From: Melioribacteraceae bacterium
GTDB taxonomy: Bacteria > Bacteroidota > Ignavibacteria > Ignavibacteriales > Melioribacteraceae
Assembly: GCA_030584085.1 (NCBI GenBank)
Contig: CP129490.1
Coordinates: 1,397,511 to 1,461,510, forward strand
Direction: 5' to 3'
DNA length: 64,000 nucleotides
Within the stretch, counting starts at the first letter, position 1, and each line of letters begins with the position of its first letter. The position numbers were made by a program, and so were the translations under genes. Shown piece by piece: positions 10,339-48,950 of the stretch. The notes under the pieces are model-generated. The model made no database searches and was not told the origin of the DNA. It saw only the letters and a list, made by a program, of their open reading frames with translations.

Positions 10339-13104
10339 ATGACGCCGGAACAAAGAGCACGTCAAAATATTGATAACCAACTTAAATCTGCTGGCTGGGC
10401 TGTTCAATCGCTTAAAGATTTTAATCCTTCATCAAACTTTGGAATTGCTGTAACCGAATATCCAACTCAATCCGGTAATGCGGATTATCTTCTCTTCGTT
10501 GATCGAAAACCAATTGGAGTTATTGAAGCTAAAGCAGAAGGTAAAACACTTAGTCAAGTCCACGATCAAACCGAAAGATATGCGACCGATACATTAAAGT
10601 ATATCGGCAAAAAAGAAGATCTTCCTTTTCAATATGAATCAACCGGAACGGAAACTTACTTTACAGATGCTCGTGACCCATCACCAAGGCAGAGAGAAAT
10701 ATTTCACTTCCATAAACCGGAAACTCTCTATGAAATGTTTACTCAAGGTACTTCGCTGCGATCAAGATTAAAAACATTTCCGCAATTAAATTATGATGGT
10801 TTACGTCAATGCCAGATTAGGGCTATTAATAATTTAGAAAATTCATTTGCAGAAAATCACCCACGCGCGTTAGTGCAGATGGCAACCGGTGCAGGTAAAA
10901 CTTTTACGGCAATTACTTCAGTATACAGATTACTAAAATTTGCAAGGGCTAAGAGAATTTTATTCCTTGTCGATACAAGAAATCTAGGCAAACAGGCAGA
11001 ACAAGAATTCCAGGCATATAAACCAAACGACGATAAAAGATTATTTACCGAACTTTATAATGTGCAGCGACTGCAATCAAATTTTATTGATCCATCCGCG
11101 CAAGTATGTATAAGCACAATTCAAAGAATGTATTCAATTCTCAAAGGCAAAGAGCTCGATGAAAGTTTAGAAGATGATTCGCCTTATGAATCCAAACTGA
11201 TAAAGAATAAAATTGATGAGGTCGTCTATAACGAAACAGTTCCCATAGAGACATTTGACTTCATTGTCATCGATGAATGCCACCGCTCAATTTATAATTT
11301 GTGGAAGCAGGTTCTTGACTACTTCGATGCATTTATGATAGGGCTTACAGCGACACCGGATAAAAGAACATTCGCTTTCTTTAATGAAAATGTTGTAAGC
11401 GAATATACACTCAAGGACTCCATATCAGATAAAGTAAACGTTGGTTATGATGTCTATACCATTGAGACAGAAATTACTCAGAAAGGTGCTGAGATAAAGG
11501 CTAAAGAATATGTTGATTTGCGCAATAAGCAAACCCGCAAAAAAGAATGGCGGCAGCTTGAAGATGAAATAAAATATGAAGGCACTCAGTTAGATAGGGA
11601 TATAGTTAATCCAAGTCAGATCAGAAATATTATCCGCGAGTTCAAACGAATTCAGAAAGATGTATTCTTCCCGGAACGCGATGAAGACAAGGAAGTACCT
11701 AAGACGCTTATCTTCGCTAAAACCGACAGTCACGCAGAAGATATTGTTCATATTGTTAGAGAAGAATTCGGCGAAGGAAATGACTTCTGCAAAAAGATAA
11801 CATACAGGGTACAAGGAGAAGATCCTGAATCCGTACTTCAACAGTTTAGAACTGCTTATAATCCACGTATAGCCGTTACTGTTGATATGATTGCAACCGG
11901 TACGGATGTTAAGCCGATTGAAGTTCTCATTTTTATGCGCGATGTCCGTTCAAGAAATTATTTCCAGCAGATGATAGGTCGTGGTGTTCGATCTCTTTCA
12001 AGAGATGATCTAAGAAAAGTTACCAACAGTGCAAGGGTAAATAAAGAACGGTTCTATATAATAGATGCAGTCGGTGTTTTCAAATCTGTTAAAGTTGATT
12101 ATCCTGTTGTTGATAAAAAACCTACTGTCCCTCTCAAAGATTTAATGAAAATGGTTATGCTGCAGCCGGATGAAGAAACGGTTACTTCACTTTCATCTAG
12201 ATTAACAAGATTAGCAAAACAAATATCCGATAGTGACAATGAAAAGTTCAAAGAACTAAGCGGCGGTAAATCAATCGAAGATGTAGCAAATGAATTAGCC
12301 GACCTTTACGATCCCGATTTTCAATACGATGTTGCTGTTGAGAAATTTAATTTACCTGATGATGCAGAACCAACCGAAGAACAAATTCAATCAGCCATTC
12401 AGCCAATCATTCAATCTTCCGTTAAACCATTTGATAACCCAAAGCTTAGAGACTTTGTAGAAACAGTCCGGCAGAAGATTTACCAAGTAATAGATACGGT
12501 TAATATTGATAAAGTCACTTTCTCCGGTTTCGATGCGCAGGCAAAAGAAAATGCTGAGGCAGTCATCGGATCTTTCAGAAAGTTTATTGAGGAGAACAAA
12601 GATGAAATTATTGCTCTTAAGATTTTATACAGTCAGCCCGAGCGAAGAAAAGAACTCAATTACAAAATGATCAGAGAATTGAGAGATGTTCTTAACAACG
12701 CACCTTATCATTTGTCAACCGAACAGATTTGGAATGCATACGAAAGAGTTTATCCGGCAAAAGTAAAAGGAACAACCGCACAGAGAATGTTAACCGATAT
12801 CATTTCCTTGATCCGTTTTGAACTAAAGATTGATGATATGCTTATACCTTACGGTGATATAATTAACCGCAACTACCGCGATTGGATGTTTAAGAAAAAT
12901 GCCGGTCCGGTACAGTTTACAAATGAGCAGGTTGAATGGCTGCGTATGATAAAAGAACATCTTGTTACTTCCGTTAGAATAGATAAAAAAGACTTTGACT
13001 TCTCGCCGTTTGTTGACAAAGGCGGACTCGGAAAATTCTGGAAGGTATTCGGTAACGAAACCGAAAATATTCTTGAAGAAATAAATGAGGAATTGGCAGC
13101 ATAA
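10339..13104 (+). CDS. hsdR: Type I restriction enzyme R subunit (EcoEI-like HsdR)
   Basis: 921 aa. The N-terminal nuclease has Asp49 and E63-A-K65 in NADYLLFVDRK ... VIEAKAEG, the PD-(D/E)XK pattern of HsdR. SF2 helicase motifs follow: MATGAGKTFT (181-190), IDECHRS (DECH at 312-315), LTATPDKRT and QQMIGRGVRS. The C-terminal part matches the EcoEI-R C-terminal domain that docks on HsdM/S. The protein translocates DNA with ATP and cleaves unmethylated DNA as part of an R2M2S complex. It starts the plus-strand locus that ends with hsdM at 20979. All key residues look intact. Confidence 0.95.
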   Translation: MTPEQRARQNIDNQLKSAGWAVQSLKDFNPSSNFGIAVTEYPTQSGNADYLLFVDRKPIGVIEAKAEGKTLSQVHDQTERYATDTLKYIGKKEDLPFQYESTGTETYFTDARDPSPRQREIFHFHKPETLYEMFTQGTSLRSRLKTFPQLNYDGLRQCQIRAINNLENSFAENHPRALVQMATGAGKTFTAITSVYRLLKFARAKRILFLVDTRNLGKQAEQEFQAYKPNDDKRLFTELYNVQRLQSNFIDPSAQVCISTIQRMYSILKGKELDESLEDDSPYESKLIKNKIDEVVYNETVPIETFDFIVIDECHRSIYNLWKQVLDYFDAFMIGLTATPDKRTFAFFNENVVSEYTLKDSISDKVNVGYDVYTIETEITQKGAEIKAKEYVDLRNKQTRKKEWRQLEDEIKYEGTQLDRDIVNPSQIRNIIREFKRIQKDVFFPERDEDKEVPKTLIFAKTDSHAEDIVHIVREEFGEGNDFCKKITYRVQGEDPESVLQQFRTAYNPRIAVTVDMIATGTDVKPIEVLIFMRDVRSRNYFQQMIGRGVRSLSRDDLRKVTNSARVNKERFYIIDAVGVFKSVKVDYPVVDKKPTVPLKDLMKMVMLQPDEETVTSLSSRLTRLAKQISDSDNEKFKELSGGKSIEDVANELADLYDPDFQYDVAVEKFNLPDDAEPTEEQIQSAIQPIIQSSVKPFDNPKLRDFVETVRQKIYQVIDTVNIDKVTFSGFDAQAKENAEAVIGSFRKFIEENKDEIIALKILYSQPERRKELNYKMIRELRDVLNNAPYHLSTEQIWNAYERVYPAKVKGTTAQRMLTDIISLIRFELKIDDMLIPYGDIINRNYRDWMFKKNAGPVQFTNEQVEWLRMIKEHLVTSVRIDKKDFDFSPFVDKGGLGKFWKVFGNETENILEEINEELAA

Positions 13105-25407: not shown

Positions 25408-25935
25408 TCCATAACAACCTAAACTGTTATAGTTAAAATACAAAATACAAAACTTAATTAAAAAACACAGAGAAATTTCCACCATTCCATTTTTCCAGCA
25501 TTCCATAATTCCATACATCCATTTACGCATTCTTTCATCCAATCTTCCAGTCTTCGTATCATGCAAGAGATTCCGTGTAAAATTTCCGCCAGCGCGGGAT
25601 GTCGCTTTTGGATCAAAGTAGGTGGTAAGGCACTCCACATCACGGAATGACCGACTCTTTTTGTCATTCCCGCGAAAGCGAGAATCCATGAAATAAATTC
25701 AATATTCCACCATTCCATTTTTCCTTAATTTCTACTGTCATGATATCTTCAACTCCATATTTCAACCCTATCTGAAACCTATTTGAAAACTTATCAGTGT
25801 CGTTACAGTCTCGATACAGTACCGCTCCGGTGCCGTCCAAATCATACACAATCCAGCCTCAACTGAGTACCTTTTCCATAATTTTTTTAATATATTTTAG
25901 ACAATCAGTCTTTTAAGTAATAATATTGAGGTATT
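25408..25935. repeat. Composite intergenic repeat array 1
   Basis: It holds low-complexity ATTCCA/ATCCA words (25479-25560), then the 120-bp element 25568-25687, which begins ATTCCGTG, contains CACGGAAT as its inverted match, and ends in the hairpin GTCATTCCCGC...GAATCC. Reverse-strand frames through it are artefacts. No gene supported; the last 60 bp before 25936 probably carry the promoter of the next gene. Confidence 0.7.
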
Positions 25936-26592: not shown

Positions 26593-27060
26593 TACCCAGA
26601 ATTCTCTCATTCCACTCAACCACTCACCCAATCTTCCATCATTCCAATTCTCCATCATTCCTCTCATCCTCTCGTCCAATCATCCACCAATCCATTCATC
26701 CATGCAAGTCATCAGATTCCGTGTAAAATTCTCGCCAGCGCGGGATGTCGCTGTTGGATCAAAGTAGGTGGTAAGGCTCTCCACATCACGGAATGACCGA
26801 CTCTTAATTTGTCATTCCCGCTAATGCGGGAATCCAAGCTATAAATTTTTCTCTTCGTGTGACTTTGTGCGTACTTCGTGTAACTTAGTGACCTAAATCC
26901 TTCATTCATCCATCCATTCATCCATTCATCCAATCTTCCAATAATCCAATCTTCCATTTTTCCATCTTTCCACTCATTACTCCATCACTCCATTCCACTT
27001 ATTGCATTTCAATCAGACAAACTTTAATTTCATTTCAAAATAACATACACTTAATCTCAT
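26593..27060. repeat. Composite intergenic repeat array 2
   Basis: Same components as array 1: ATCCA-type words (26610-26705), the 122-bp ATTCCGTG...CACGGAAT element with GTCATTCCCGC hairpin (26714-26835, about 90% like 25568-25687), a TTTGTG/CTTCGTG block (26848-26893), then more ATCCATTC words to about 26995. The final 60 bp lead to the acs ribosome site. Confidence 0.75.
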
Positions 27061-28968: not shown

Positions 28969-29460
28969 TCATATAACTATTAATCCGGGTTGTTAAGTAA
29001 TCATTGAAAATTGTCATTCCCGCGAAGGCGGGAATCGATAACTATTTTGTTTTCTTTGAGTAACTTTGTGCCCGCCTCTGGTGTGTGTACTTCGTGTAAC
29101 TTTGTGACCATAATCCTTCAATCAACCAATTACCCAAAATTCCATTATTCCACTATACCAACCATCCAATCTATAATTCATTAATCCATGATCCAACAAT
29201 CCACTCATCCATTCATCCAATCCATCTATCCATAGATTCCGTGTATAAGCATCACGGAATTATCGACTTTTTTTTGACATTCCCGCAAAAGCGGGAATCA
29301 ATAACTGAAATGTCTTCTTTGTGAGACTCTGTGCTTACTTCGTGAAACTTTGTGACCTTATCTATTCAATAAAGTTGATTCAATTTATATCAACCATCAT
29401 TTAAAAATAATCATGAAATTCTAAATCTCATTTATTATTTTAACCGGTCGATTTAGTAAT
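28969..29460. repeat. Composite intergenic repeat array 3
   Basis: About 540 bp without a gene. It contains GTCATTCCCGCgaaggCGGGAATC (29013-29036), TTTGTG/CTTCGTG blocks (29052-29110 and 29312-29356), ATCCA-type words (29117-29232) and a short copy of the ATTCCGTG...CACGGAAT element (29234-29299) that lacks the inner 50 bp. The last 50 bp before 29512 contain AATAAC/GTTATT and GGAAG/CTTCC pairs around a run of G. Confidence 0.7.
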
Positions 29461-44922: not shown

Positions 44923-46476
44923 TTACGAATCTATATTAAAAACAGAATCGAGTAAAGTTCCGTCAACCCATTTTATAACTGCAACAACTTTATTTTTATT
45001 TACTTTTGGTTTTTTAGGAACTCCGCAAAGATCAACTACTTCGTCATAGATTTCTTTTATAGTTCTTATTGGAAGCGATGAACCTTTAACAGCTTTCAAT
45101 AAATCTTTCCGATTCGGATTAATTGCAATTCCTCTTTCGGTTACGATTACATCTATTAATTCACCGGGACCAACAAGTGTGGTAACCTCATCAACAATTA
45201 CAGGAATCCTATCCCTAAAAGAGGGGATTGCTAAAATTGTACATTTGGAGAAAAGACAGTTTTGCCATCCACCGATTCCGTGAAGTAAATATCCGTCTGA
45301 ATGTGTTACAACATTTGCGTTAAAATTTAAGTCGACTTCGGTTGCACCTAATACTGCCGCATCTACAATAGATGCAAAATTTCCCTTGCCGTGATAATTA
45401 TAACTTGTGAATGGTGAGGTGTTTACATGTTCGGGATTTTCTCGCATAGAACGAACACCTTCCAAATCAAAAGTTTGTCCGTCGAGAATGTAATCAGTTA
45501 ATCCTTCTTCCAACATTTCAACGAGATATTTTGTACTGCCACCTCGAATAAATCTTGCTTTCACTCCGGCTTTTTTCATTTTCTCTCTTAAGTAAACGGC
45601 AAATGCTAAGTTTGTTCCTCCCGCTCCGGCTTGAAATGAAAAACCATCTTTCATTATTCCGGAATCCTCTAAGAATTGCGCTACATATTCTGCAATTAAT
45701 AATCTATCGGGACTTTTAGTTACTTCTGTAGTTCCGCTTACAATTTTTGCCGGATCACCGAGTGAATCAATCTCCACTACATAATCAACATTGTTGCCTT
45801 GAATCTGCCAAGGGTAACAGGGGAATGGAATTAGATTGTCAGTTACAACAATAACCTTATCTGCATATTCTGAATCAGCTAAAGCAAATCCTATAAGCCC
45901 GCAAGCTGATTTACCTCTATCACCGGTTGCGTTTCCAAACGGATCGGCAGTTGGAGCGGCAATTACTGCAATATCAATTTTCACTTCACCGTCTTGTATT
46001 GATTGATATCTTCCACCATGAGACCGTAAAACTCCAATACCTTTCATCTTACCTTCGCTTGTATATTTCCCGAGCGGTCCGTTCATACTTCCTTCGATAT
46101 GATGAATAGTTCCATCATCCAAATATTTTATTAAATGTTCATGACATGGAAAAGAAGCGGTAGGAAACCATCTAATGTTTTTAACACCTATTTCTTTTAT
46201 AACATCGAATAAATAGTTTGTAAGAACATCTCCATTTCTTAAATGATGATGTGTTGAAATTGTCATCCCATCTTTAAGTCCGGCTTTCTTTAATGCTTCT
46301 TTCAAATTTATTACAACTTTATTCCCATTTGCCGGATAATCGGCACAGCTTCTAATCGGCGGCTTTGCTTTATTGCCTTTTGGCTTGTATTTACCCACCC
46401 CTTTAAATGGAATTTGTTTTTGATTGTTAACTTTTTCTGGGACTAATCTTCCGGCTTGGTTTTTTAGTAGTTTCAT
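44923..46476 (-). CDS. citF: Citrate lyase alpha subunit (citrate CoA-transferase)
   Basis: 517 aa from the ATG at 46476 (MKLLKNQAGRLVPEKVN); an ATG at 46491 lies inside a GACAAT-type repeat and is less likely. Conserved CitF blocks: DGMTISTHHHLRNGD, FPCHEHLIKYLDDGTIHHIE, GLRSHGGRYQSI-like RSHGGR, and FQAGAGGTNLAFAVYL. The subunit moves the acyl carrier protein onto citrate before cleavage by CitE. Last gene of the cluster. The ACP and beta subunits are encoded by the fused gene upstream. No CitC, CitG or CitX activation gene is in the window. Confidence 0.93.
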   Translation of the reverse strand: MKLLKNQAGRLVPEKVNNQKQIPFKGVGKYKPKGNKAKPPIRSCADYPANGNKVVINLKEALKKAGLKDGMTISTHHHLRNGDVLTNYLFDVIKEIGVKNIRWFPTASFPCHEHLIKYLDDGTIHHIEGSMNGPLGKYTSEGKMKGIGVLRSHGGRYQSIQDGEVKIDIAVIAAPTADPFGNATGDRGKSACGLIGFALADSEYADKVIVVTDNLIPFPCYPWQIQGNNVDYVVEIDSLGDPAKIVSGTTEVTKSPDRLLIAEYVAQFLEDSGIMKDGFSFQAGAGGTNLAFAVYLREKMKKAGVKARFIRGGSTKYLVEMLEEGLTDYILDGQTFDLEGVRSMRENPEHVNTSPFTSYNYHGKGNFASIVDAAVLGATEVDLNFNANVVTHSDGYLLHGIGGWQNCLFSKCTILAIPSFRDRIPVIVDEVTTLVGPGELIDVIVTERGIAINPNRKDLLKAVKGSSLPIRTIKEIYDEVVDLCGVPKKPKVNKNKVVAVIKWVDGTLLDSVFNIDS

Positions 46477-46483
46477 TGTCGCA

Positions 46484-46520
46484 TTGTCCAATTGTCTAAT
46501 TGTCGTACTTGAGTCTAAAT
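46484..46520. repeat. GACAATT/ATTGTC tandem low-complexity repeat
   Basis: CATTGTCGCATTGTCC, AATTGTCTAATTGTCG words run directly into the citF start and occupy the place where a ribosome site is expected. A related pair (ATTGTCACATTGTCCAATGG) occurs at 48847-48866. Confidence 0.7.
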
Positions 46521-46901
46521 CTTGAGTTTTGTATTAGTATAATTAATTAAGCTATTTATTGCTTTTGGTAATTTTTGTAATTCTGCAAATATATGATCGT
46601 ATTCATTATCTGAAAGGAGTTTTCTAGCTTTAGCTTTTTCATTCCAATCCAAAGATTCATACATTGAACCAAAACTAATTCTATAAAATCTAATCTTATC
46701 TTTTTTTGTATATCTTCCAAACCCTTCTGCAATATTAGCAGAAATTGAATCGACTGCATCAGTAAATTGCGAGCCAATTGTTCGCTTGGCGAAATAATCC
46801 CATTTACTAATGATAGCCCAGACATAATTGCTTAACGCAAATGCAATTCGATAAGCTTCAATGTCATTCAATTTCAGATATTTAACCTGCTTTTCAACCA
46901 T
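46515..46901 (-). CDS. S23/four-helix-bundle (IVP-like) protein
   Basis: 128 aa. It matches the 23S rRNA intervening-sequence-protein family: LKLNDIEAYRIAFALSNYVW, IGSQFTDAVDSISANIAEGF-like DAVDSISANIAEGFGR, then YTKKDKIRFYRISFGSMYES. These small four-helix bundles are related to the Avd proteins of diversity-generating retroelements; function is unclear. It splits the citrate lyase genes. Its start codon lies inside a CCATTAAACCATTTATT-type repeat and its 3' side abuts the ATTGTC repeat, which looks like an inserted unit. Confidence 0.85.
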   Translation of the reverse strand: MVEKQVKYLKLNDIEAYRIAFALSNYVWAIISKWDYFAKRTIGSQFTDAVDSISANIAEGFGRYTKKDKIRFYRISFGSMYESLDWNEKAKARKLLSDNEYDHIFAELQKLPKAINSLINYTNTKLKI

Positions 46902-46930
46902 GTGACCATGCAGCCATTAAACCATTTATT
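46897..46930. repeat. ACCATG/ACCATT low-complexity repeat at S23 gene start
   Basis: CCATGTGACCATGCAGCC and ATTAAACCATTTATTG form the 5' flank of the S23 gene and resemble CAATTAAACCATTCAGCC at 48901-48918. Confidence 0.65.
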
Positions 46931-48149
46931 GATTTTCTTCTCTCCAATTTTTCTTCAATAATTTATTTTCTTCAGCAAGTCTAACTATTCTTCTAGCACG
47001 TTTTACCACCGGTGCATCAATCATTTTACTACCGAGCGAAACAACACCTAACCCTTTTGCTTCTGCTTCTTCGAATGCGACAACTATTTTCTTTGCTTTT
47101 TCAATTTCACTTTCGGTTGGTAAAAATGTTTCGTTTACAACTTTAACTTGACGAGGATGAATGCAGCCTTTACCTTCAAAGCCGAGTAACTTTGCTTCTA
47201 ATACGGAGATTCTTAATCCTTCCATATCACTCACATCGGAAAACACTGTATCAATTGCTTGAATCTTTGCAGCTTTAGCTGCGTTAATAATCATACTTCT
47301 TGCAAAAATACTTTCCTTGCCTTCGTTTGTTCTTTCCACTCCGATATCGGCTGTGTAATCTTCAAGTCCGACTGCGAGAGCACAATTATATTTTGAAGTA
47401 GATGCAATTTCATAGCTCTTGATAACACCAAGTGCACTTTCAATTATCGGCATGAAATAAATATCTTCTTTTACTTTGAATTCTTTTTTCAGCAGTTCAA
47501 CAGTTTTCTCAATTTCTTTAACTTGTTCTATGCTTTCAACTTTCGGGATTAAAATTACATGAACATTATGAGGTACAATAAACTTGAGGTCATCCAATCC
47601 CTTAGGCATTTGATTGATTCTAACCATTCTTTCGGAACCATAAAAATCAATTGAACGAAGAGCATTTCTGACTATCAATTGTGCAGCTTCTTTTTCGGTT
47701 GGCGAAACGCTGTCCTCTAAATCTAAAATTATTCCGTCTGGTTTATGCAGTCCGGCGTTGGGATAAAATTTGGGTTCATTGCCGGGAAGGTATAATCTGC
47801 TTCGTCTCAATCTTTCTTTTGTCGTTTTGTATTTATTCTTTTTGTTGAATTCGGGTAGGTATTCTTTATCAATTTCGGGGAAGAGTTTTTTTATTGCAAG
47901 TTCGAATCGTGCACCAAGTGTAAATGGAAGCGCTCCGGAATCTTCGATTAAAATGTCGGCATTTTTCAAGCCGAAAAACTCAGACATTTTTGTTACTTCT
48001 TTACGTATCGAATCTCCAAACATCGAGTCGACTTTACTCTTTAAATCAATTTTTAATCCGCCCGATTTTTTTAATTCAATTTCGATGTAGCAATCTGATC
48101 TGACTTTACTTCCGCGTTTACCCGCGTTTCCGATTTTCTTTTCAGCCAT
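46926..48149 (-). CDS. citE: Fused citrate lyase gamma (ACP) and beta subunit, CitD-CitE
   Basis: 407 aa. Residues 1-95 match the CitD acyl-carrier protein (GNAGKRGSKVRSDCYIEIEL ... ILIEDSGALPFTLGAR); Ser18 in VRSDC is the likely attachment point for the phosphoribosyl-dephospho-CoA arm. From about 105 the protein is CitE/HpcH aldolase: RRSRLYLPGNEPKF, DGIILDLEDSVSPTEK, ALAVGLEDYTADIGVER (Asp/Glu metal ligands), FEGKGCIHPRQ. Normally CitD and CitE are separate genes. The fusion places substrate carrier and lyase on one chain. It precedes citF with the S23 gene between. Confidence 0.9.
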   Translation of the reverse strand: MAEKKIGNAGKRGSKVRSDCYIEIELKKSGGLKIDLKSKVDSMFGDSIRKEVTKMSEFFGLKNADILIEDSGALPFTLGARFELAIKKLFPEIDKEYLPEFNKKNKYKTTKERLRRSRLYLPGNEPKFYPNAGLHKPDGIILDLEDSVSPTEKEAAQLIVRNALRSIDFYGSERMVRINQMPKGLDDLKFIVPHNVHVILIPKVESIEQVKEIEKTVELLKKEFKVKEDIYFMPIIESALGVIKSYEIASTSKYNCALAVGLEDYTADIGVERTNEGKESIFARSMIINAAKAAKIQAIDTVFSDVSDMEGLRISVLEAKLLGFEGKGCIHPRQVKVVNETFLPTESEIEKAKKIVVAFEEAEAKGLGVVSLGSKMIDAPVVKRARRIVRLAEENKLLKKNWREENQ

Positions 48150-48229: not shown

Positions 48230-48508
48230 TTAACTGTAATGACCTAAAATTGAGATAATTTGGATCTCGCTTTTCTCTACTTTGTAAATCAATCTATCTT
48301 GAATATTGATACGTCGCGACCAACAGCCTTCATATTTATGTTTTAACGGTTCGGGTTTCCCTAAACCTTTGAATGGAGATTTTTGAATGTCATCAATCAG
48401 CATTGCAATTTTCTGTAAATACTGTTGTGCGTCCGGCTGATTTTTCTTTATAATTTTTATTTGCCTGAGCGATTCATTCGACCAAACAAGATTTCGTTTT
48501 TTAGGCAA
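48230..48508 (-). CDS. yoeB: YoeB/Txe-family mRNA interferase toxin
   Basis: 92 aa, full length. SPFKGLGKPEPLKHKYEGCW, SRRINIQDRLIYKV and the C-terminal ILGHYS match YoeB. Catalytic positions equivalent to E46, R65, H83 and Y84 of E. coli YoeB are Glu53, Arg72, His90 and Tyr91. It cleaves mRNA in the ribosomal A site. It follows its antitoxin gene with no gap, the standard order. The pair interrupts the citrate/aconitase cluster. Confidence 0.93.
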   Translation of the reverse strand: MPKKRNLVWSNESLRQIKIIKKNQPDAQQYLQKIAMLIDDIQKSPFKGLGKPEPLKHKYEGCWSRRINIQDRLIYKVEKSEIQIISILGHYS

Positions 48509-48775
48509 TTAAACACCCAGAGCTTCTTTAGTCGAAAGCTTTTTAACTTTTCCGCTTTTTACTTCTTTTAATCCTTTGTCAATACTTTTTAACCAATTGG
48601 GATTTGATAGAACGTATAAATTTTCTAACAAATTATCGTAATCCTCTTTAGAAAGAATAACAGCATCATTTCTCCCTTTTGAGCCAACAATAACAACAGG
48701 TTCTTTGTTTTTGTCAACCGAGTTAATCAATTTATTTAACTGATTCCTTGCATCTGTATATTGAATTGTTTGCAT
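48509..48775 (-). CDS. yefM: YefM/Phd-family antitoxin
   Basis: 88 aa. The N-terminus (YTDARNQLNKLINSVDKNKE, PVVIVGSKGRNDAVILSKED, YDNLLENLYVL) is the Phd/YefM DNA-binding fold, and the acidic-basic C-terminus (LSNPNWLKSIDKGLKEVKSG) wraps the toxin. It represses its own operon with YoeB. It is immediately upstream of yoeB and completes a typical type II module. Confidence 0.93.
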   Translation of the reverse strand: MQTIQYTDARNQLNKLINSVDKNKEPVVIVGSKGRNDAVILSKEDYDNLLENLYVLSNPNWLKSIDKGLKEVKSGKVKKLSTKEALGV

Positions 48776-48844: not shown

Positions 48845-48950
48845 AATGAATTGTCACATTGTCCAATGGTTTAATTGTTGGTAAGGTAAAAGACTTCTAG
48901 CAATTAAACCATTCAGCCATTTATCCATTTCATCATTTAAACAATCAGTT
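48845..48950. repeat. Low-complexity repeat resembling an empty S23-gene site
   Basis: ATTGTCACATTGTCCAATGG (48847-48866) and CAATTAAACCATTCAGCC (48901-48918) are the same two repeat types that flank the S23 gene at 46.5-46.9 kb, here only 35 bp apart and with no gene between. Confidence 0.6.

Follow-up and report, generated by a model that had tools for sequence, protein, structure and literature searches.

Why should a small gene for a four-helix-bundle protein sit inside a cit operon, with short repeated words packed against both of its ends? The locus lies in the window, our name for the whole stretch of 64,000 nucleotides from a Melioribacteraceae genome analysed here. The sequence-only reading of this DNA placed an S23 gene between citDE and citF, noted ATTGTC words at one end and ACCATT/CATTAAACC words at the other reaching the S23 start codon and the citF start, and took gene and repeats for a mobile or recombining unit. 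The layout is borne out: profile matches and coordinates agree on the gene order, all three genes are on the minus strand, both word types are present (ACCATT/CATTAAACC at ~46902-46925, ATTGTC as a period-8 array at 46468-46509), and the arms touch the S23 start codon and overlap the start of citF. The features of the locus are as follows.

46515..46901, minus strand: S23/IVP gene, 128 aa (PF05635 and TIGR02436 above cut-off; dN/dS)
46902..46925, minus strand: upstream arm of AATGGTTTAATGGCTGCATGGTC words, from the citDE stop to the S23 start codon (sequence; inverted match)
46468..46509, minus strand: downstream arm of CAATTAGACAATTGGACAATG words (ATTGTC on the plus strand), overlapping the citF start (period-8 array)
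46926..48149, minus strand: fused citD-citE, upstream of the element (PF06857, PF03328)
44923..46491, minus strand: citF, downstream of the element (PF04223)

The protein belongs to the four-helix-bundle family, with matches to PF05635 (E 3e-22, 79.2 bits against a cut-off of 33.8) and TIGR02436 (E 5e-24, 84.6 bits against a cut-off of 24). PF05635 is its sole match among the Pfam profiles, which gave no known transposase (tyrosine transposases included), recombinase or nuclease domain. Six positions of the family are nearly invariant (Q, S, N, E, S and E). The dN/dS values are 0.05 and 0.10 against the cit-locus orthologues L043 and L054, and 0.10 for a pair of S23 genes (L001/L014) in a region named by eye as nuo; a third cit-locus pair was saturated at synonymous sites, and with three computable pairs at 0.05-0.10 the gene appears to be under purifying selection. 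In the neighbouring citD-citE fusion (46926-48149) the acyl-carrier domain lies N-terminal to the CitE-type lyase domain.

Read on the S23 strand, an ATGGTC-type word precedes the gene and the reverse complement of ATTGTC follows it; the run before the gene is AATGGTTTAATGGCTGCATGGTC, and the run after it reads CATTGTCGCATTGTCCAATTGTC when reverse-complemented. Because both word types are degenerate copies of one 8-bp word, they form a single inverted pair. These terminal inverted repeats are weak in the window copy, for which 54 of 2000 shuffles gave an equally good match, and clear in its cit-locus orthologues (as good in 0 of 2000 shuffles for G032, 2 for G031, 14 for G002 and 15 for G012); the downstream arm of the window copy also resembles sequence in the G002 and G012 orthologues. 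Across 21 genomes the citE-citF gap holds a related S23 gene in five; in 14 relatives lacking the gene, whose spacing the sequence-only reading suggested comparing, it measures 0-102 bp. In the remaining two, one genome has no citE beside citF and the other (G003, locus L112) carries a distinct 496-bp insert with no S23 match. The insertion at the cit locus is old, and the gap comparison over these 21 genomes gives no support to movement of this particular copy.

The S23 family is common in these bacteria, being present in 29 of 30 genomes searched (the source genome and 29 relatives) and in 116 of 148 genomes across the phylum; it was absent from all 14 well-known control genomes, and one S23 protein compared with 50,697 phage records had no match at E 1e-5. 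Eight S23 genes of the source genome (3.74 Mb) pass the Pfam cut-off, and one of these is interrupted. On inspection by eye, each lies between facing short-word flanks whose words differ from gene to gene, among them TGAGATC, AAGTTTGTAAAG, GGAGCTAG and TTCCANNN; by score, three of the seven near-full elements reach at least 14.

To score flanks, we aligned the 200 bp before each gene with the reverse-complemented 200 bp after every gene of the set. For the window's order, part of the matches, mostly intact genes, supplied 121 distinct S23 matches, of which 108 were near full length and 105 had both flanks of at least 150 bp. The phylum-wide and named-genome sets supplied 107 matches, 103 of which were kept. 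In the order set the own-pair score averages 16.5 and the other-pair score 9.57 (AUC 0.894), and an element's own downstream arm ranks first of 105 for 43 elements. The AUC is 0.891 for the 28 phylum-wide elements and 0.922 for 75 elements of named genomes from many phyla, taken from the best 80 of 574. The direct-orientation control gave 0.587, 0.68 and 0.70 for the order, phylum and named sets; this raised similarity (0.59-0.70) is expected of low-complexity arrays and may be a confound. Control genes of 80-200 aa from the source genome and G005 (n=173) gave 0.494. Among the 208 S23 genes of the three sets (105, 28 and 75, the last drawn from the best 80 of 574), 105 score at least 16 as against none of the 173 controls, and 131 score at least 14 as against three controls; 77 of the 208 fall below 14 within 200 bp.

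The arms themselves are periodic. Mean autocorrelation is 0.556 at period 7, 0.349 at period 8 and 0.25-0.28 at periods 4-6 and 9-13, and self-similarity over periods 4-16 has its main peaks at 7 and 14 bp and lesser ones at 8 and 16. Periodicity was scored in 166 of 416 real arms and in 1 of 416 shuffled ones, and a period-7 array holds a median of 4.7 words. On the sense strand G exceeds C in the upstream arm of 116 of 131 elements, and C exceeds G in 10. Matching inverted word flanks thus appear to be the general anatomy of S23 genes, with a word of 7 or 8 bp that differs by element, and gene and arms would together make one unit of ~0.4 kb. It had been proposed that other S23 genes should carry the same flanks; in anatomy they do, and in wording they do not, a literal test of sameness failing because each element or S23 clade has its own word.

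Most units lie in sense between genes of their own orientation. Where both neighbours could be called, they are co-oriented with the S23 gene in 92 of 102, 21 of 25 and 55 of 66 elements, compared with 62.1% of 354 gene triples in the source genome. For 101 elements with placed arms, the median distance is 2 bp from the stop codon of the gene before to the beginning of the upstream arm, and 8 bp from the end of the downstream arm to the next start; the spread is wide, and 37 aligned arms overlap the upstream-called ORF (these are simple ORF gene calls). In the flank-scored set, the upstream arm ends a median of 34 bp ahead of the S23 start. Plasmid copies, for which 12 of 43 plasmid records were used, are similar: 11 of the 12 have inverted arms scoring at least 15.8, ten of the 12 being cyanobacterial. 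On cyanobacterial plasmids S23 genes separate cas6 from cas4 and cas10 from a Cmr3-family gene, or follow a TraM-domain gene; a Nostoc edaphicum copy has ribonucleotide reductase genes on either side and is antisense to both. The copies beside cas or ribonucleotide reductase genes in these plasmids are L288, L289, L292 and L298. An S23 gene in such a position can look functionally linked to the system that surrounds it; those inside cas or metabolic operons are probably passengers rather than components.

Whether arms and gene move as one can be asked of related plasmids that differ by a single element, and the evidence for insertion is wholly comparative. Arms and an S23 gene occupy one site on Trichormus variabilis plasmid C and on a Scytonema plasmid. 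In Nostoc linckia, Tolypothrix and N. carneum, plasmids ~97% identical have this site empty, with no array; at the Trichormus site GTAAT occurs once when empty and on both sides when filled. In a small Nostoc plasmid operon of three genes, A-B-C, two plasmids have one S23 element between A and B, duplicating TTCTA exactly in L312 and as TTCTA/TTCTG in L314, and another plasmid has a different element between B and C, flanked by TAATG/TTATG (one mismatch). The A|B- and B|C-filled plasmids are thus each other's empty sites, and a fourth plasmid has neither element. Each of the three insertions lies at a stop-start junction, without interrupting either annotated gene. The comparisons covered 15 stretches (six, four and five) in the plasmid alignments and four of 11 records for the A-B-C operon. 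At these three sites the whole unit, arms and gene, appears to insert with a target duplication of ~5 bp, two of the three duplications being exact in at least one plasmid.

Other comparisons are less clean. Filled and empty plasmids compared at the TraM and Calothrix integrase sites showed no readable duplication. Decay is seen at two sites that are filled elsewhere, one of them retaining a truncated S23 gene with its upstream arm (L304) and the other arms with no S23 match (L306). At a site in one genus the element is present in three of six genomes and absent in three (G061, G072, G087, G098, G101 and G130); the flanks there, at 71-81% identity, are too divergent for junctions to be read. 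A short palindromic repeat of GTCATCCTGAACTTGTTTCAGGATC type, at L319 4890-5300, recurs in highly similar copies throughout the six searched genomes of its genus. The mobile unit suspected at the cit locus finds its support elsewhere, in empty and filled pairs where arms and gene are gained or lost jointly and in the matching inverted arms round most of the S23 genes examined.

A further expectation was that the array at 48845-48950, where the two word types adjoin with no gene between, represents an empty site of this kind. The array is real, but it is a gene-less hairpin, and the true empty sites have no array at all. It is one of several arrays in the window that stand without a gene.

48853..48937, minus strand: hairpin that has no gene, in the word family of the cit copy, between prpD and a YefM/YoeB pair (inverted arms)
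25477..25531, plus strand: gene-less TTCCANNN array, the word of S23 element L006 at G000:C1:1593334 (array and word match)
26614..26994, plus strand: gene-less period-8 arrays, partly of the TTCCANNN class (match at 26952)
29188..29233, plus strand: gene-less period-8 array

The window contains six period-8 arrays, more than chance would give, since none of ten block shuffles had more than one; the other periods tested yielded 0-2 arrays. One of the six, at 12385-12420, resembles coding sequence. In the hairpin at 48845-48950 the two sides share an identical 13-bp arm, AATGGTTTAATTG (equalled in 3 of 2000 shuffles), and as RNA it folds modestly better than shuffled sequence (z -1.57, equalled in 14 of 200). 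The gap between prpD and citDE in which it lies is 788 bp long and also holds the YefM/YoeB-type toxin-antitoxin pair (window 48230-48775); it measures 17-160 bp in 14 other loci where prpD and citDE lie close to each other. At this same position G019 has an S23 gene of the cit-copy clade (66-68% identity), and in G017 a weaker gene-less hairpin of a different word occupies it (equalled in 16 of 2000 shuffles).

Searching the source genome with the L006 word (TTCCANNN x3) gave 32 matches in about seven places, including the element itself and two in the window, and none for the reversed control. All matches fall within 1.42-1.69 Mb, all but one on the same strand, and most are one-sided rather than hairpins. 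The TTCCANNN arrays span ~263 kb round L006 (G000:C1:1422987-1686168), and two groups of them are tandem copies, with units of 245 bp and 322-341 bp, that include CACCCCTTCGGGGT-type hairpins. Geobacter sp. AOG1 offers a parallel: besides the S23 element itself, nine gene-less places carry its S23 word (TCGGRAC x2), and the reversed word occurs nowhere. At five of these nine an inverted copy follows within 150 bp, equalled by at most one of 1000 shuffles, and four have no clear partner; one of the five hairpins (L355), viewed by eye, lies between a stop codon, which it closely follows, and a start codon. Long open frames span all nine sites, and L350 and L352 may lie in coding sequence. Array density is one per 286 kb in G005, which has no S23 gene, and 12 per 464 kb in the source genome, a contrast weakened because eight of the 12 arrays lie in the window and four in an even 400-kb sample. 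A stricter hairpin-array scan of both genomes returned nothing and missed the known hairpins too.

Word similarity and S23 protein identity are correlated in the 124 of 208 elements whose arms score at least 14 and span at least 20 bp (Mantel r 0.137; the largest of 999 permutations was 0.078), and the similarity is mainly same-strand. For 157 pairs with at least 55% identity and dissimilar neighbours the mean word cosine is 0.166, a value reached by none of 999 permutations (largest 0.076); this filter dropped pairs with the same genome label, phylum and named loci being labelled by locus. Individual cases span phyla. A Deltaproteobacterium (L222) and G092 (L163, of the window's class) share AGTAGTCAGTAGCC with proteins 64% identical, and Nitrospirae L207 and KSB1 L228 share AGGCACAA with proteins 66% identical. 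CAGAAGT types occur in the window's order (L021, L017) and on plasmids of Trichormus, Aulosira and Nostoc, which encode S23 proteins 64-68% identical to the L021 one. A GGGAACA type is another of the Nostoc words. A Picosynechococcus S23 gene is an exception, being 63% identical to that of L021 and flanked by GAGGAGATAAGGAGATAG, and of the 28 pairs at 60-65% identity roughly two thirds miss the word threshold. Words tend to be held in common by related S23 proteins, across phyla and among dissimilar neighbours, and this coupling could be partly the common descent of whole elements.

The S23 family is known from intervening sequences (IVSs) of 23S rRNA genes, in Coxiella and Leptospira among others. 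The Coxiella IVS has a 28-bp terminal stem, an S23p ORF and tandem GACAGAT heptamers, variable in number among strains, just before the S23p start; RNase III excises this and other rRNA IVSs, past mobility of the IVS is discussed as a hypothesis, and a toroidal homopentamer is cited (PMC4990558). In Azospirillum lipoferum 4B we find an S23 gene with GACAGAG/GACGGAT heptamer arms inside a 23S rRNA gene (L297). The 23S copy on another plasmid has no element and is 100% identical over the aligned parts; at this rRNA site there is no target duplication, the element replacing a 19-nt palindromic stretch. Both kinds of element have an S23 ORF within terminal inverted repeats, and tandem heptamers accompany S23 in Coxiella and in L297 alike. 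They differ in that the window copy lies in a protein-coding operon (citDE/citF) and not inside a 23S rRNA gene, and the account of IVSs in PMC4990558, in its passages on these repeats, places heptamers in one species, with no mention of copy-specific words or of operon or gene-less copies. From these comparisons operon S23 elements and rRNA intervening sequences appear to be the same kind of thing.

We think it likely that these observations describe a widespread family of tiny mobile elements, similar to REPIN/RAYT systems, in which an S23 gene lies between inverted arrays of a 7- or 8-bp word. The S23 protein would recognise its own word at the element ends and would thereby decide which sequences move, as RAYTs relate to REPINs. 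Recognition of the word by S23 is proposed because it most simply covers insertion of the unit, target duplication, word-protein coupling and gene-less copies. The relatives 2gsc and 2rld have five chains each in their crystal entries, and a ring of S23 subunits may read tandem words, one each. In a transcript the two arms could pair, giving a likely stem for RNase III, which may free the S23 part from the host RNA as in the Coxiella IVS; such release would allow residence in an operon or rRNA at low cost.

The RNA could instead be the whole of the matter, with the arms a hairpin for RNase III, S23 a passenger or RNA-binding helper and the words by-products of slippage. We regard this as a serious contender, although on balance a doubtful one. 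It accords with the predominance of sense orientation between co-oriented genes, the excess of G over C in upstream arms, RNase III excision of the Coxiella IVS (PMC4990558) and the Azospirillum copy within 23S rRNA. Words that follow the protein clade and scattered gene-less copies of a word are not predicted by it, however, and mismatches between arms show no excess of G.U-compatible pairs (156, against 202 A.C), so RNA pairing seems not to be what maintains the words. Pre-existing slippage arrays near which S23 genes insert or persist are a highly improbable source of the pattern. Arrays without S23 do occur in the source genome and elsewhere, but the ~97% identical empty plasmids of the Trichormus site have no array, control genes do not have such flanks, and the arms are inverted, word-matched and linked to protein clade.

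TRAP provides a parallel for a ring that binds tandem RNA words, and an S23 ring might likewise bind such words in its leader RNA, one per subunit, controlling S23 and perhaps the next gene, with mobility as a side effect. The five chains of 2gsc and 2rld, the median of 4.7 words per period-7 array, the 34 bp from upstream arm to S23 start and the tracking of word with protein all suit autoregulation; we nevertheless judge it unlikely as the main explanation, since it leaves the matching inverted downstream arm, the gain and loss of whole units and the gene-less copies unexplained. Avd, the accessory protein of diversity-generating retroelements, is a pentameric four-helix protein, and its similar build, together with the preference for sites between co-oriented genes, could suggest a retroelement that depends on reverse transcriptase, S23 acting as Avd does. 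Such dependence is very unlikely, as 19 of the 30 genomes searched have no RVT_1 match, 18 of them with S23 matches; RVT_1 is absent from the source genome, G017, G018 and G026, which have 10, 31, 15 and 16 S23 matches, and the source genome also differs in this respect from one bearing a diversity-generating retroelement.

The mobile S23 element, as we prefer to read it, resembles several known systems in part. In REPIN/RAYT systems short inverted pairs form hairpins that are scattered gene-less, in sequence groups linked to proteins (PMC3116915). S23 elements would share the hairpin pairs, the gene-less scatter and the tie of sequence class to protein, a likeness seen in part, with five of nine gene-less AOG1 copies paired and the L006-word arrays of the source genome mostly one-sided; they differ in having tandem 7/8-bp words, a four-helix bundle instead of a tyrosine transposase, and full gene-bearing units that insert at stop-start junctions. 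Like insertion sequences they have inverted ends, a short target duplication and a gene tied to those ends, but the ends are degenerate word arrays, there is no known transposase domain and the length is only ~0.4 kb.

Short tandem heptamers are a named class of cyanobacterial repeats. Comparable intergenic arrays have been described of GGGAATC in Xanthomonas, with 70 and 75 inverted pairs, and of GGGGA(C/T)T in Nostoc, with few (PMC4692102), of GGGACCG, MTYCTGA and GTTGCTYN in Geobacter metallireducens (PMC2700814) and of TAACTGA in Beggiatoaceae (PMC4679880). By our own complementation MTYCTGA yields TCAGRAK, the type to which the words of the CAGAAGT S23 clade belong. These arrays are like the S23 arms in their period of 7-8 and largely intergenic location; unlike them, they have been interpreted, in the sections of those papers that treat them, as quadruplex-forming sequences or as regulatory or translational signals (PMC4692102, PMC2700814, PMC4679880), and S23 and four-helix terms are absent from the main texts of all three. 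Among titles and abstracts found in an open-licence library, none joins S23 or four-helix genes to inverted operon arrays.

More tentatively, and as a possibility to which we would not yet commit ourselves, S23 may be a mobility protein of a novel kind, unlike any known transposase. As a ring it would read tandem 7/8-bp words, the word diversifying with the protein, and it would mobilise the S23 gene as well as hairpins lacking that gene, inserting both among the genes of operons and in rRNA. IVSs and several separately reported heptamer arrays of cyanobacteria, Xanthomonas, Geobacter and Bacteroidota would then all be products of one pan-bacterial system. A mobile S23 element would offer a single explanation for the spread of S23-bearing rRNA intervening sequences, for the identity of many operon-internal genes annotated as 'four helix bundle protein' and for the source of some heptamer arrays in cyanobacteria, Xanthomonas and Geobacter. 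If S23 does read its word, the family would constitute a natural series of protein-word pairs and a new form of sequence-specific nucleic-acid recognition.
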